This document shows, piece by piece, positions 57,688 to 62,807 of a stretch of DNA of 64,000 nucleotides; position 1 is the stretch's first letter, and every line of letters starts with the position of its first letter. The stretch spans positions 1 to 64,000 of the forward strand of contig SPQJ01000015.1 in assembly GCA_004570425.1 (NCBI GenBank). The letters are read 5' to 3'. The stretch is from Bacillus sp. AZ43 (GTDB lineage Bacteria > Actinomycetota > Actinomycetes > Mycobacteriales > Geodermatophilaceae). Under the pieces are notes generated by a model, which was not told the origin of the DNA, did no database searches, and was given only the letters and a program-made list of their open reading frames with translations. The translations under genes and the position numbers were made by a program.

Positions 57688-59813
57688 CGTACGCCTTGCC
57701 GCAGCCGATCGCCCTCGACATGCCGCCCGGCGACCCCGCCGAGGTCGAGGACCTCGTCAGGGACGTCGCGGGGGCGGCCTTCCGGCTGGCCGGTATCGGC
57801 GAGGTGCTCGCCGGGCGCGCGGGCGGCACGCCGGGCTGGCTCGGGGACGACGCGACGGCGGCCGAGGCCCAGCTGGACCGGGTCACCGGGATCGTGCGGG
57901 AGGCCGGTGCCGCGGTGCTCGCCGCCACCGGACGGCTCAGCGCCCACGGGGAGCTCCTCCGCGAGACCCGCCGGCAGGTGCGTGCCCTGCGCGAGGAGCA
58001 GGCGGAGGACTTCCGGCTGGCCCAGCGGCAGCTCCTGGAGACCGCGGACCCGCAGTACGCGGTCATGACCGGCGCGCTGTCCTGGGCGGGCACCGTCGCG
58101 GAGGTCGAGGCGGCCGAGGCCCGGCGGCGCCGGCGGCACGAGCTGCTCCTCGAGGAGCTGGCCGACGACGTCGCCGCGACCACGCGGGCGCTGGCCCAGG
58201 CGAGCCGCCCCGTCGGCGGGGCCGGCCGGCCGGGTGACGGCAGGCGCGTCCTCGCCCACCTGGCCGCCGCGCTGCCGGGCTGGGGCGACCCGGAGCTGGC
58301 CCACCGCGGGCTGGCGGCCGGCCGGGAGCTCGCCACCACGTCCATGACGCCGGAGGAGCGCATGGCCCTGGCGCGCGAGGTGGCGGCCTACGCGCACCTG
58401 CCGGCCTTCGCCTCCGCGTTCGTCCGTGGCCTCGACGTGGAGGGCGTGGGCGGGCTCCTCCACGTCGTGGGAGAGCACCCCGCCGGCCCGCTGGCGGGCG
58501 TGCTCGCGGCCGCCCTGGGCGGCGCGGTACCGGGGACGGCCCGCACGGACCGCGTCCGGGCCGTCCTGGAGGCGGACCACCTGCCCGCCGACGACACGTG
58601 GAGCGCCGACCGGCGGGCCGCCGGCATGGCCGCCGTCCTCCTGGCGGGAGCAGGGTCGGCGGCCCCGCGGACGGCGACCGTCGCGGAGTGGGCGCGGCAG
58701 CTCCTGGTGCACGAGCAGGCGACGGGGCGCCCGCCGGGGCTGCCCGCCGGAACGCCGGGCCGGGGGCCGGGCGAGCCCCACGACGCGGTGGAGGTGGCCG
58801 TCGCCGCGCTGGCACGGGAGGCGACGCCCACGGAGGCCGCGGTGTTCCTCGGCGGGCGCCGGACGTGGGAGATGCTGCTGGCCCGCCACTGGGCCGACGG
58901 CGGCGAGCTGCTCGGCGCGCTGGTCGGCACCGCGGCCGACGACGCCGGGCCCGACGGCGACCGCGCGGTTCGCCTCGGGCTGCAGACGATCGGCGCCGGT
59001 CTGTTCGCGGGCGACCCCTCCGGCTGGACGGTGGACCGCGGCACCGTCGCGGCGGTGGCGCCGGCGCTGGGGCACGCGGTGGCCGCCCACGTGGCCGCTG
59101 CGGCCGACGCGCTGGGCACGGCGGCGTCGGGCGCCGATGACGACGGCACCGGCCAGCAGGTGCGCGGCCTGGGTCTGGTGCTGCTCGACGGGGAGGCCCG
59201 AGCCGCCGTCCAGGGGGCGCTGGTCGACTGGTCGGTGACGCAGGTCCGGGACGGCGGGCGGAGCAGCCCCGAGAGCCCGCACCCCGCGATCGCCGTGACG
59301 AGCGCGTTCGTCGCCGTGCGGGAGCACGGCTACCGGCTCGATCACGCCCTGGACGGCCACGAGCTGCGGGAGCGGGCCGAGGATCGCGAGCAGTTCTGGA
59401 AGTGGACGGCCGGCCTGGTCCTGGAGCTCGCCTCCCACGCGCGCGCCACACCGCTCGCCGTCGTCGCCGAGGTCGCCGGCACCTACGCGCCGATGCTCCT
59501 CGACATGGACGGCACCTTCGACCTGGGCCCCGACCGTGCTCCACGCCTGGACGCCGACGACGCCGCCGCTCTCGCCCGGGGCGTCGTGCCGGCCGACCTC
59601 GCCGCACGAGTGCACGTCGTGGAGGCGCAGGCCCGGGCCGCCTTCGAGCGGACCGCCCGGCTCCTCGGCGGCGCGGATGCCCCGGTGTCCCCGCCGAAGG
59701 ACTACCGGGGTGCGACGTTCGACCTCGCGACCGACTGGTTGTCCGACCTCGCGATCGGCGAGGCGCGGGCTCGCGGCGGTGTCCGGGGCGGCGGCTCCTC
59801 ACCCGATCGGTGA
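57684..59813 (+). CDS. large helical protein with WXG-like N-terminus, function unknown
   Basis: 709 residues. Residues 1-160 look like a long WXG/LXG-type helical hairpin: VEDLVRDVAGAAFRLAGIGE, PGWLGDDATAAEAQLDRV (tryptophan-glycine-like turn), then LLRETRRQVRALREEQAEDF and a long charged helix. The rest is Ala/Gly/Leu-rich and helical, with a patterned core (GLLHVVGEHPAGPLAGVLAA, WEMLLARHWADGGELLGALV, YRLDHALDGHELRERAEDRE). It recalls actinobacterial DUF6571-style proteins, uncertainly. No toxin active site or signal peptide is seen. It follows the small partner with an ATGA overlap. Confidence 0.6.
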   Translation: MTYALPQPIALDMPPGDPAEVEDLVRDVAGAAFRLAGIGEVLAGRAGGTPGWLGDDATAAEAQLDRVTGIVREAGAAVLAATGRLSAHGELLRETRRQVRALREEQAEDFRLAQRQLLETADPQYAVMTGALSWAGTVAEVEAAEARRRRRHELLLEELADDVAATTRALAQASRPVGGAGRPGDGRRVLAHLAAALPGWGDPELAHRGLAAGRELATTSMTPEERMALAREVAAYAHLPAFASAFVRGLDVEGVGGLLHVVGEHPAGPLAGVLAAALGGAVPGTARTDRVRAVLEADHLPADDTWSADRRAAGMAAVLLAGAGSAAPRTATVAEWARQLLVHEQATGRPPGLPAGTPGRGPGEPHDAVEVAVAALAREATPTEAAVFLGGRRTWEMLLARHWADGGELLGALVGTAADDAGPDGDRAVRLGLQTIGAGLFAGDPSGWTVDRGTVAAVAPALGHAVAAHVAAAADALGTAASGADDDGTGQQVRGLGLVLLDGEARAAVQGALVDWSVTQVRDGGRSSPESPHPAIAVTSAFVAVREHGYRLDHALDGHELRERAEDREQFWKWTAGLVLELASHARATPLAVVAEVAGTYAPMLLDMDGTFDLGPDRAPRLDADDAAALARGVVPADLAARVHVVEAQARAAFERTARLLGGADAPVSPPKDYRGATFDLATDWLSDLAIGEARARGGVRGGGSSPDR

Positions 59814-60003
59814 CAGCTGGCTCAATATCACTCACGCAAAGTGACGACGCGAGGGCGCGTCACCCGGACATGATCATCGGTGCTTGTCCGGACGGGTGAC
59901 GGGAAGCAATGTCTCCCGCGCGGTCCGTACTGAACGACGCTCTGCCCCCGCGCGCGTAGGTGGCTGCCGCACAGCCGCAGTCAGTCATGCCTCGGGAGGC
60001 GTC
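59814..60003 (+). promoter_or_regulatory. structured leader upstream of the repeat peptide
   Basis: 190 bases without a gene. Three stems compete: TCACT (59828-59832) with AGTGA (59840-59844); GTGACG (59841-59846) with CGTCAC (59858-59863); and GTCACCCG (59859-59866) with CGGGTGAC (59893-59900). The first two share 59841-59844 and the last two share 59859-59863, so they cannot all form at once, as in attenuators. The last could also be the terminator of the upstream pair. The peptide's ribosome site GGGAGG lies just before its ATG. Confidence 0.45.
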
Positions 60004-60111
60004 ATGGGTAGCAACGTGCAGTCTGGTTCGACCTCGGTCCGCGGCGCGAAGTGGAACCGCGGCGCCAAGTGGAATCGCGGCGCCAAGTGGAACCGCGCCG
60101 TCGCCGTCTGA
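60004..60111 (+). CDS. 35-residue peptide with three RGAKWN repeats
   Basis: ATG 60004 with GGGAGG about six bases upstream. The peptide is MGSNVQSGSTSV, then RGAKWN three times, then RAVAV. The repeats come from three tandem 18-base units (60043-60060, 60061-60078, 60079-60096) that differ only at synonymous third positions (GCG/GCC, AAC/AAT), a sign that the peptide sequence is what is kept. It has no signal peptide. A 13-bp terminator follows, so it is a single-gene transcript. Tandem W-N-R motifs recall precursors of modified peptides, but no maturase is nearby. Function unknown. Confidence 0.7.
   Translation: MGSNVQSGSTSVRGAKWNRGAKWNRGAKWNRAVAV
60043..60096 (+). repeat. three tandem 18-bp coding repeats
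   Basis: Unit 1 GGCGCGAAGTGGAACCGC, unit 2 GGCGCCAAGTGGAATCGC, unit 3 GGCGCCAAGTGGAACCGC, without spacers. Each encodes GAKWNR. All differences are synonymous. Confidence 0.95.
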
Positions 60112-60135: not shown

Positions 60136-60166
60136 CGAGGCGGCCGGCCCTGTGCCGGCCGCCTCG
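60136..60166 (+). terminator. strong terminator after the repeat peptide
   Basis: CGAGGCGGCCGGC (60136-60148), loop CCTGT, GCCGGCCGCCTCG (60154-60166): a perfect 13-bp stem 24 bases after the peptide stop. A weaker stem (GCGACC with GGTCGC) follows at about 60177-60210. It separates the peptide transcript from the downstream GGDEF-EAL gene. Confidence 0.85.
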
Positions 60167-60260
60167 CTGCTTGCGGCGCGACCTCATCCCGTGGGGGCGG
60201 TGAGGGGTCGCAGGGCGCCTTTCCGCTGCTAGCCTTCGCGCGCCCGTCTTCCCAGGGGAA

Positions 60261-62807
60261 ATGCAGGTACGAGTGGCCGAGCAGAACGACCGCGCGCCGT
60301 CCCGGCCGTTGCGGCTCACCGCGTGGGCGGTCGCCTGGATCGGCCTCGCCGTCGCCGTGCCCGTCTCGCTCTGGGTCCTCTTCCCGCCCGGCGAGCCGGT
60401 CGAGCCGCTGCGGCTGATCGCGGTCTTCGTGGCCTTCGTCGCCGCCGAGTCGTTCAACGTCGACTTCGAGTTCCGCAAGCAGGGGTTCTCCTGGTCGGCG
60501 AGCGAGCTGGCGTTCGTGCTGGCGCTGGCCAGCGTGGGCGGCGCCTGGACGGCGGTCGCCTGGGGCTTCGCCGTCGCCATCGTGTCCCTCGCGCAGGGGT
60601 ACTCCCGGGCCAAGACGCTCTTCAACGTGACGGTCGTCGTGCTGGAGACGTGCGCGGCCGTCAGCGTCCTGGACGCCCTGCCGAAGGGCGAGATCACCGA
60701 CCCCGGCACGTGGCTGTCCTACCTGCTGGCGGTGCTCACCGCGAGCCTGCTCAGCGTCGTGCTCATCGCCGGCGCCATCGTGGCCACGCAGGGATATCCC
60801 GGCCGGGCGCTGTGGGCGTCCTTCCTCATCCCCGCGCTGATGATCGGGCCGGTCTCCGTGGTCGTCGGCCTCGCCGTCCTCCTGCTGGTCGGCGCCACGC
60901 CCTGGGCCTGGCTGCTGATCGCGCCGCTCGTCGTCGCGCTCGCGCTGCTCTACCGCCGCTTCGCCGCCGTGACCCAGGACGGCCACAGCGTGGAGCGGGT
61001 CTACGACTTCGCCCGTCGCGTGGAACAGGTCTCGCCCGACGAGGCGGGGACCCGGCAGATCGTCGCGGCCGTCCGCGAGCTGCTCAACGCCGACCGCGTG
61101 GCGCTGTGGCTGCCTCCCTACCTGGACGAGGAGCCCCGGCTGGTCGTCGTCGCCGACAACGGGGCCGTCTGGTACGACGGCCCCGGCGACCCGGACGACG
61201 TCTTCCGCCGTCGCGCGGTCTCGTCGCTGGACGGGCCCGTCCGGGTCTCCCTGGCCGACGCCGACGACGTCGAGGCCCAGGCGCTGCTGCGCCGCGGCGT
61301 CTCCGACCTGCTCGGCGCGGCCGTGATGACCGCCGCGGGCGAGCCCGGCTACCTCGAGGTGTGCGACCGGCGCAGCGACATCCACTCCTTCGGCGACAGC
61401 GACAGCGCCGCGCTGGACTCGATGCTCACCCACGTCAACGCGGCCATCCGGCACCAGCAGCTGCTCAGCCAGATCCGCTTCGACGCCGACCACGACCGCC
61501 TGACCGGGCTGCCCAACCGGCAGCGCCTCGCCGCCGAGATCGACGCGCTGCTCTGCGCGGACCCGGCCACCGCCCGGGCGGGGCTGATCCTGACCGCGCT
61601 CGGCAACTACACCGAGGTCACCGACACGCTCGGCCACGCCGCCAGCGACGAGCTCCTGCTGGTCACCGCCGGCCTGCTGCGCGAGCACGCCCCGCCGTCG
61701 GCGCTGGTGGCCCGGATGGAGGGCGAGCAGTTCGCCGTCCTGCTGCCCGGGCTGTCGCTCCAGGCGACCGAGCGCGCGGCCCGCAGGCTGCGGGAGGCGA
61801 CCTCCACCCGGGCGCGCGTCGCGGGGCTAGACCTGGAGGTCACGCTGACGATCGGCGTGGCCGCCGCGCCCGTGCACGGCACCGACGCGGGGATGCTCAT
61901 GCAGCGGGCCGACGTCGCGCTGCTCGCCGCGGCCGACTCCGGCGGGGTCGCCAGCTACCACCCGGTGCTCGACCAGCAGAGCCTGCGCCGCCTGCAGCTG
62001 GGCACCGAGCTCGAGCAGGCCATGGCCGACGGCCAGATCAGCGTGGTCTTCCAGCCGATCATCGACGCGCAGACCTCCGACATCGTGTCGGTGGAGACGC
62101 TGGTGCGCTGGGCCCACCCGCGCTACGGCGACATCCCGCCGGACGACTTCATCCACCTCGCCGAGCAGATCGGCCGGATCGGGGCGGTGACCGACCACGT
62201 CCTCGACCTGGCGCTGGCGCGCTGCCGGCGCTGGCTGGACCAGGACATCTCGCTGTCGGTCGCGGTGAACCTCTCGGCGCACTGCCTGACCGAGCCCGAC
62301 CTGGTCACCCGGGTGCGGCGGGCGCTGCAGCGGCACGACGTGCCCGGCGAGCTGCTCACCCTGGAGCTGACCGAGGGCAGCGTCGTGGACGACTCGGTGC
62401 GCGACAGCACCGTGCTCGCCGACCTCCACGGGCTGGGCCTGCGGCTGTCCATGGACGACTTCGGCACCGGCTACTCCTCGCTGTCCCAGCTGCGCCAGCT
62501 GCCGATCGACGAGGTGAAGATCGACAAGTCCTTCGTGCTGGGCATGTCGACCAGCCAGGGGGAGTCCTTCATCGCCCGCTCGATCATCGAGCTGGCCCAC
62601 AACCTGGGCCTGCGCGTGGTGGCGGAGGGCGTCGAGGACGAGCTGACCCGCAACCTGCTCGCCGAGATGGGCTGCGACAAGCTGCAGGGTTTCCTCGTGA
62701 GCCGGCCGCTGCCCGACGACCGGCTGGAGAGCTGGCTGCTGGCCCGGACGGGTGTCCGCAAGGCCGCCCCGGGTGCCACCCACCGGCGCCTGTTCGTCCG
62801 CACCTGA
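60261..62807 (+). CDS. membrane-bound GGDEF-EAL protein (probable c-di-GMP phosphodiesterase)
   Basis: Up to 848 residues; ATG 60261 or GTG 60273. Six or more N-terminal helices form a MASE-like membrane sensor (to about 235). A GAF-like domain follows (about 255-395), then a GGDEF-type domain whose active motif is degenerate (MEGEQF near 486 for GG(D/E)EF), so cyclase activity is unlikely. The EAL domain has ETLVRW near 612, VAVNLSAHCL, LELTEGSV, DDFGTGYSSLS near 732, KIDKSFV near 753 and VAEGVED near 787, so the catalytic glutamates, aspartates and lysine are kept. It should break down cyclic di-GMP. The signal it senses is unknown. Confidence 0.9.
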   Translation: MQVRVAEQNDRAPSRPLRLTAWAVAWIGLAVAVPVSLWVLFPPGEPVEPLRLIAVFVAFVAAESFNVDFEFRKQGFSWSASELAFVLALASVGGAWTAVAWGFAVAIVSLAQGYSRAKTLFNVTVVVLETCAAVSVLDALPKGEITDPGTWLSYLLAVLTASLLSVVLIAGAIVATQGYPGRALWASFLIPALMIGPVSVVVGLAVLLLVGATPWAWLLIAPLVVALALLYRRFAAVTQDGHSVERVYDFARRVEQVSPDEAGTRQIVAAVRELLNADRVALWLPPYLDEEPRLVVVADNGAVWYDGPGDPDDVFRRRAVSSLDGPVRVSLADADDVEAQALLRRGVSDLLGAAVMTAAGEPGYLEVCDRRSDIHSFGDSDSAALDSMLTHVNAAIRHQQLLSQIRFDADHDRLTGLPNRQRLAAEIDALLCADPATARAGLILTALGNYTEVTDTLGHAASDELLLVTAGLLREHAPPSALVARMEGEQFAVLLPGLSLQATERAARRLREATSTRARVAGLDLEVTLTIGVAAAPVHGTDAGMLMQRADVALLAAADSGGVASYHPVLDQQSLRRLQLGTELEQAMADGQISVVFQPIIDAQTSDIVSVETLVRWAHPRYGDIPPDDFIHLAEQIGRIGAVTDHVLDLALARCRRWLDQDISLSVAVNLSAHCLTEPDLVTRVRRALQRHDVPGELLTLELTEGSVVDDSVRDSTVLADLHGLGLRLSMDDFGTGYSSLSQLRQLPIDEVKIDKSFVLGMSTSQGESFIARSIIELAHNLGLRVVAEGVEDELTRNLLAEMGCDKLQGFLVSRPLPDDRLESWLLARTGVRKAAPGATHRRLFVRT

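Follow-up and report, generated by a model that had tools for sequence, protein, structure and literature searches.

A short gene on the plus strand of the 64-kb window (the whole stretch of DNA analyzed here), at positions 60004 to 60111, encodes a tandem-tryptophan-repeat peptide and lies upstream of a gene for a membrane GGDEF-EAL enzyme. Judged from its sequence and conservation, it is a real coding gene that had previously gone unnamed. We propose that the peptide and the enzyme form a two-gene signaling pair in which the repeat binds a membrane domain resembling the S components of ECF transporters, a reading to which we give an even chance. A broader reading, held somewhat more tentatively, is that the locus belongs to an undescribed actinobacteria-wide signaling pair. 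A membrane c-di-GMP enzyme would there have as its cognate ligand a tandem-Trp repeat, whether this forms the tail of a subtilase, belongs to a small secreted protein, or is a free peptide, and the unit and the S-component-like sensor would co-evolve, with exact repetition under selection. Each species would then, as a result of this co-evolution, possess its own repeat “word”.

The open reading frame (ORF) runs from ATG to TGA and specifies the 35-residue product MGSNVQSGSTSVRGAKWNRGAKWNRGAKWNRAVAV, which contains three RGAKWN units. A Shine-Dalgarno sequence, GGGAGG, is located at 59994-59999, 4 nt before the start codon, and the units are encoded by three tandem 18-nt stretches (60040-60057, 60058-60075, and 60076-60093; together 60040-60093) that differ from one another only synonymously. 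An earlier note on this DNA had described both the good ribosome site and the synonymous-only units, and both were confirmed. The repeat is not a chance product, as a scan of the window and of 380 kb of DNA from relatives for tandem Trp-containing repeats (at least three copies, units of 5 to 10 residues, Trp in the unit) found only this locus and its overlapping frames. The 35-residue peptide has no match in Pfam, NCBIfam, or PDB sequences, and the open-access literature on such repeats, GGDEF-EAL proteins, subtilases, and these genera yielded nothing relevant to the repeat. The earlier suggestion of an undescribed repeat peptide, plausibly with a signaling role, is supported.

Among 115 genomes of Geodermatophilaceae, including named Blastococcus and Geodermatophilus records, we found a syntenic orthologous ORF of 18 to 42 residues in 73, with one clear copy per genome. 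Most of these ORFs consist of two to five tandem R-G-x-(K/R)-W-x units preceded by 4 to 16 variable residues, and a few genomes carry degenerate versions. Across species there are 43 distinct units; all of them keep R and W, and their sixth position is occupied by S, G, N, T, or A. Within these 73 genomes, unit-to-unit codon differences number 434 synonymous versus 4 nonsynonymous, the latter all confined to one genome, and the start and TGA stop codons are preserved in all 72 sequences checked. The earlier note had looked to homologues in relatives, and to repeats free of frame-breaking substitutions, as marks of a genuine peptide gene, and both were found. The same counts speak against a chance ORF inside a conserved regulatory DNA element, a reading that we regard as having next to no probability even though the flanking noncoding DNA is strongly conserved too. 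Because the units are identical within a genome yet of 43 types between species, the codon pattern indicates that exact repetition itself is under selection; when a unit changes, the copies would be homogenized, and selection would afterwards hold them identical. A collection-wide pattern scan for RGxxW units outside Geodermatophilaceae gave, among the matches listed, junk-looking frames or unrelated repeats.

The downstream gene (60261 to 62807, plus strand) encodes a protein with a membrane domain followed by GAF, GGDEF, and EAL domains, as assigned from Pfam, sequence motifs, an AlphaFold model, Foldseek, and its constancy as a neighbor. In all 20 flanks examined, each 19 kb long, the gene directly 3′ of the peptide ORF is this same GAF-GGDEF-EAL gene, on the same strand. 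The peptide had been called an orphan, a description that no longer fits, since its ORF precedes a membrane GGDEF-EAL gene family-wide and the association recurs across actinobacteria. The EAL domain of the enzyme is matched in Pfam at E 4e-68. Its GGDEF motif is degenerate (EGEQF) and its EAL motifs are intact (ETL, NLS, ELTE, DDFGTGYSS, KID, and QGF), as they also are in most relatives checked; the enzyme is thus probably a c-di-GMP phosphodiesterase. The membrane domain comprises about seven transmembrane helices. In Foldseek, the closest resemblance of its AlphaFold model (pLDDT 72) is to ECF-transporter S components (probability 1.0, E 0.05), a likeness that we treat as a weak but consistent lead. 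On the 5′ side of the peptide gene, a 698-residue ORF (57717-59813) has no Pfam match, and a relative of it is found at the same place in only some relatives.

The DNA around the peptide gene points to separate transcription. Roughly 200 nt 5′ of the gene are conserved among relatives. This region includes a plus-strand array of GTGAC boxes (59810, 59841, and 59896) and a GTCAC box (59859), spanning 59805 to 59900, which is a probable operator region; box spacings of 10, 13, 18, 31, and 37 to 38 nt recur in 72 relatives. The conserved upstream palindrome, TCAC-N7-GTGA, which was the only one compared, has a spacing that misfits the N5 of the BldD box, TNAC-N5-GTNA (PMC4151990). The published MtrA half-site, at 7 bp, is too loose to discriminate. 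A strongly conserved plus-strand block, GGGAAGC-N12-GCGGTCCGTA (59900-59931), may contain promoter elements, ECF-like by eye only. The 5′ leader is probably structured, with conserved stems GCGCGG/CCGCGC (59918-59953) and GCUGC/GCAGU (59962-59982) lying within 59918 to 59982 on the plus strand, and with a short stem containing the Shine-Dalgarno sequence (59987-60002, plus strand; 93% of cells paired, double changes in one pair). Covariation support for this structure is moderate: the three-stem model, including the Shine-Dalgarno stem, pairs 92% of cells versus 25 to 52% when slid, and its double-change cells number 24 versus 10.4 in shuffled data (0 of 500 shuffles), whereas only 4 pairs show double changes, a count as high in 192 of 500 shuffles. 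RNAalifold by itself recovers the first stem only, and comparison of the leader with Rfam gave no relevant match.

Past the stop codon, a 12-bp GC hairpin with a perfect stem (60137-60148/60154-60165; 60137 to 60165, plus strand) is a probable terminator. The terminator proposed in the earlier note therefore stands as a hairpin, but with a stem of 12 rather than 13 bp that begins 25 rather than 24 nt past the stop, and with no clear U-tract. Relatives usually have a strong hairpin there as well, mostly 0 to 50 nt away. An extended −10 box of the downstream gene, TGCTAGCCT (60227-60235, plus strand), is kept in relatives: a TTAGCCT/CTAGCCT-like match occurs in 62 of 68, mostly about 30 nt 5′ of the enzyme start, and the rest mostly have, by eye, TTAACCT, TTACCTT, or similar. 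Since the upstream DNA is conserved, the leader structured, the stop followed by a hairpin, and the enzyme gene provided with its own −10 box, the peptide gene is most likely a separate transcription unit, as the earlier note had proposed. We also considered antitermination by pairing between leader and hairpin and rejected it, because the leader is constant where the hairpin arms differ (judged by eye only).

These features also bear on whether the ORF is a leader peptide through which attenuation or ribosome stalling controls the GGDEF-EAL gene. Its position 150 nt 5′ of the enzyme gene, the structured 5′ leader, and the hairpin separating the two genes would all suit such a role. However, the conserved −10 box of the enzyme gene lies 3′ of the hairpin, stalling would not account for units that stay identical yet change in concert from species to species, and elsewhere a subtilase carries the repeat as its tail; we therefore consider a leader peptide improbable.

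Evidence for the proposed pair extends beyond the family. Syntenic orthologues of the enzyme, recognized by downstream tRNA-Thr, tRNA-Met, rpmG, and maoC, carry tandem-Trp repeats upstream in three other families: short ORFs of (DGGSWTFA)x4 and (DGNTWTFV)x5 in two genomes of one, a (TSGALWGY)x2 repeat in a genome of the second, and a subtilase with a C-terminal (WASST)n in a genome of the third. Homology of these repeats across families was judged by position and architecture, as the sequences cannot be aligned. Of 94 related enzyme loci outside the family, 26 were flagged for a tandem-Trp ORF within 900 nt upstream, of which 2 are dubious and about 24 are left; the other 68, a majority that counts against the proposal, have no Trp repeat upstream. 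All 10 upstream proteins run together against Pfam are Peptidase_S8 proteins with a Trp tail, and a Pfam GETHR match is limited to some of the subtilase tails. Two further upstream proteins, with (TNAHRWDAKG)n and (TEARWMG)n, are small and have apparent signal peptides, and one stand-alone peptide, MSDTKTPGTGWHLITPGTGWHLITPGTGWHLITPGTGWH, is built of (TPGTGWHLI) units. One locus (L309, minus strand, ~540-1386) encodes a small protein that has an apparent signal peptide and around twenty (TNAHRWDAKG)-like repeats, and a GGDEF-EAL gene follows directly. Among tail units of other actinobacteria, differences again are overwhelmingly synonymous (190 versus 6 nonsynonymous).

The association is seen in both search directions. 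When 297 genomes of the class were searched with tail sequence alone, ignoring position, about 21 separate places had sufficient downstream DNA, and in 17 of these the next gene downstream encoded a membrane GGDEF-EAL protein; this is a recount of script rows (23 of 30) that included repeat hits and truncated contigs. Three exceptions (L371, L385, and L389) have no such enzyme downstream, and at the fourth (L384) a sensor-kinase-like ORF is present. The L389 protein has a GAKWS-type Trp tail and is followed by an ORF that by eye resembles a small heat shock protein, not GGDEF-EAL. The L384 ORF is histidine-kinase-like, with a MASE1-like N terminus by eye, and a Trp-repeat match lies close by in a different frame; the ORF may represent a second partner type or a spurious frame. 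Taken together, the comparisons suggest that a tandem-Trp repeat next to one enzyme class is what stays constant and that the carrier varies.

This variation also bears on the cyclophane-type modified peptide raised in the earlier note. Under that reading, the ORF would be the precursor of a ribosomally made modified peptide (RiPP), such as a W-x-R cyclophane, containing three cores and relying on a maturase gene located elsewhere. Like precursors of the radical-SAM triceptides, it is a short ORF of identical tandem units with an aromatic residue; units in Geodermatophilaceae are joined by a W-x-R step; and the genome has 11 radical-SAM matches. None of the 11 is on the contig of the locus, and the earlier note had seen no radical-SAM or other maturase in the window. 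Moreover, the residues before the repeat are too short and variable to represent a conserved leader, the motif varies between lineages such that the x-R step is lost (orthologous repeats of other families read W-T-F, W-G-Y, or W-A-S, not aromatic-x-basic), and most other lineages carry the repeat as a subtilase tail. The cyclophane reading thus found no support at the locus, and we assign a RiPP precursor little likelihood.

Surface proteins can contain tandem aromatic repeats, and the peptide could instead be a cell-surface or membrane-active product (wall binding, adhesion, or antimicrobial), adjacent to the enzyme for regulatory reasons only, with the subtilase tails serving as wall anchors. 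The net charge of +4 to +9 in Geodermatophilaceae, combined with Trp, recalls cationic peptides, and at some loci the subtilase has a signal peptide. Yet orthologous repeats such as DGGSWTFA and TSGALWGY are neutral or acidic, so the repeats do not have charge in common, and a mere anchor would leave unexplained why one enzyme class adjoins 17 of the 21 tails. We consider a surface role unlikely.

Returning to the signaling pair, we compared unit distance with membrane-domain distance by partial Mantel tests. With the GAF domain controlled, the partial correlation was 0.30 (0 of 2,000 permutations, n = 67 genomes); with five controls jointly, it was 0.29 (p 0.001, n = 21 genomes); and with gene c4 as the sole control, p was 0.07. 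The co-divergence of unit and membrane domain is suggestive only, and it could come from a better clock instead of contact. Contact between the repeat and the membrane domain would nevertheless be the simplest mechanism. The tandem Trp repeat would be the working part of the peptide, contacting the S-component-like domain as a multivalent ligand or docking tag, and its binding would set c-di-GMP hydrolysis by the enzyme. Most other actinobacteria with the pair present the repeat as the C-terminal tail of a subtilase encoded directly upstream, exported where a signal peptide is visible; in Geodermatophilaceae, as in a small number of further lineages, it is reduced to a free peptide, most likely on its own transcript. 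Against the model, the Geodermatophilaceae peptide has no signal sequence, whereas several subtilase and small-protein versions have one. Repeat-enzyme binding, the direction of its effect, export of the peptide, and the route by which a signal-less peptide would reach its partner are elements of the model that we infer.

If the model is true, membrane c-di-GMP enzymes of a class whose input signals are, in general, not known would gain a natural partner. It would also be a rare instance of selection for exact repetition of a short unit that leaves the unit itself free to vary. A two-gene locus with a minimal version of 18 residues makes the ligand-sensor idea directly testable.

Several known systems share parts of this arrangement. 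Multicopy peptide pheromone precursors likewise hold identical copies of a species-specific unit, but here the proposed partner is a c-di-GMP enzyme and the peptide lacks a signal sequence. RmdB of Streptomyces is described as a membrane-bound GGDEF-EAL phosphodiesterase (PMC6205966) and, compared by architecture, resembles the window enzyme in that a GGDEF-EAL part bearing phosphodiesterase motifs comes after a membrane region; the accessible text of that report describes no Trp-repeat partner. Matches to the window enzyme at E 1e-90 or better occur in 4 of 60 genomes of one order, presumed Streptomycetales. The nearest analogy in logic is LapD-LapG, a membrane GGDEF-EAL receptor with an exported protease, as most pair-bearing lineages outside Geodermatophilaceae have a protease gene next to that for a membrane GGDEF-EAL protein, although the defining parts of that system are absent here. 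The upstream proteins examined are Peptidase_S8 and not LapG-type cysteine proteases, and in Geodermatophilaceae a peptide, not a protease, is encoded directly upstream of the enzyme. Pfam finds no LapD-type periplasmic sensor domain in the protein encoded at 60261-62807, whose membrane part is instead ECF S-component-like, and only its GGDEF motif is degenerate, the EAL motifs being intact. What is constant here is the tandem-Trp repeat.
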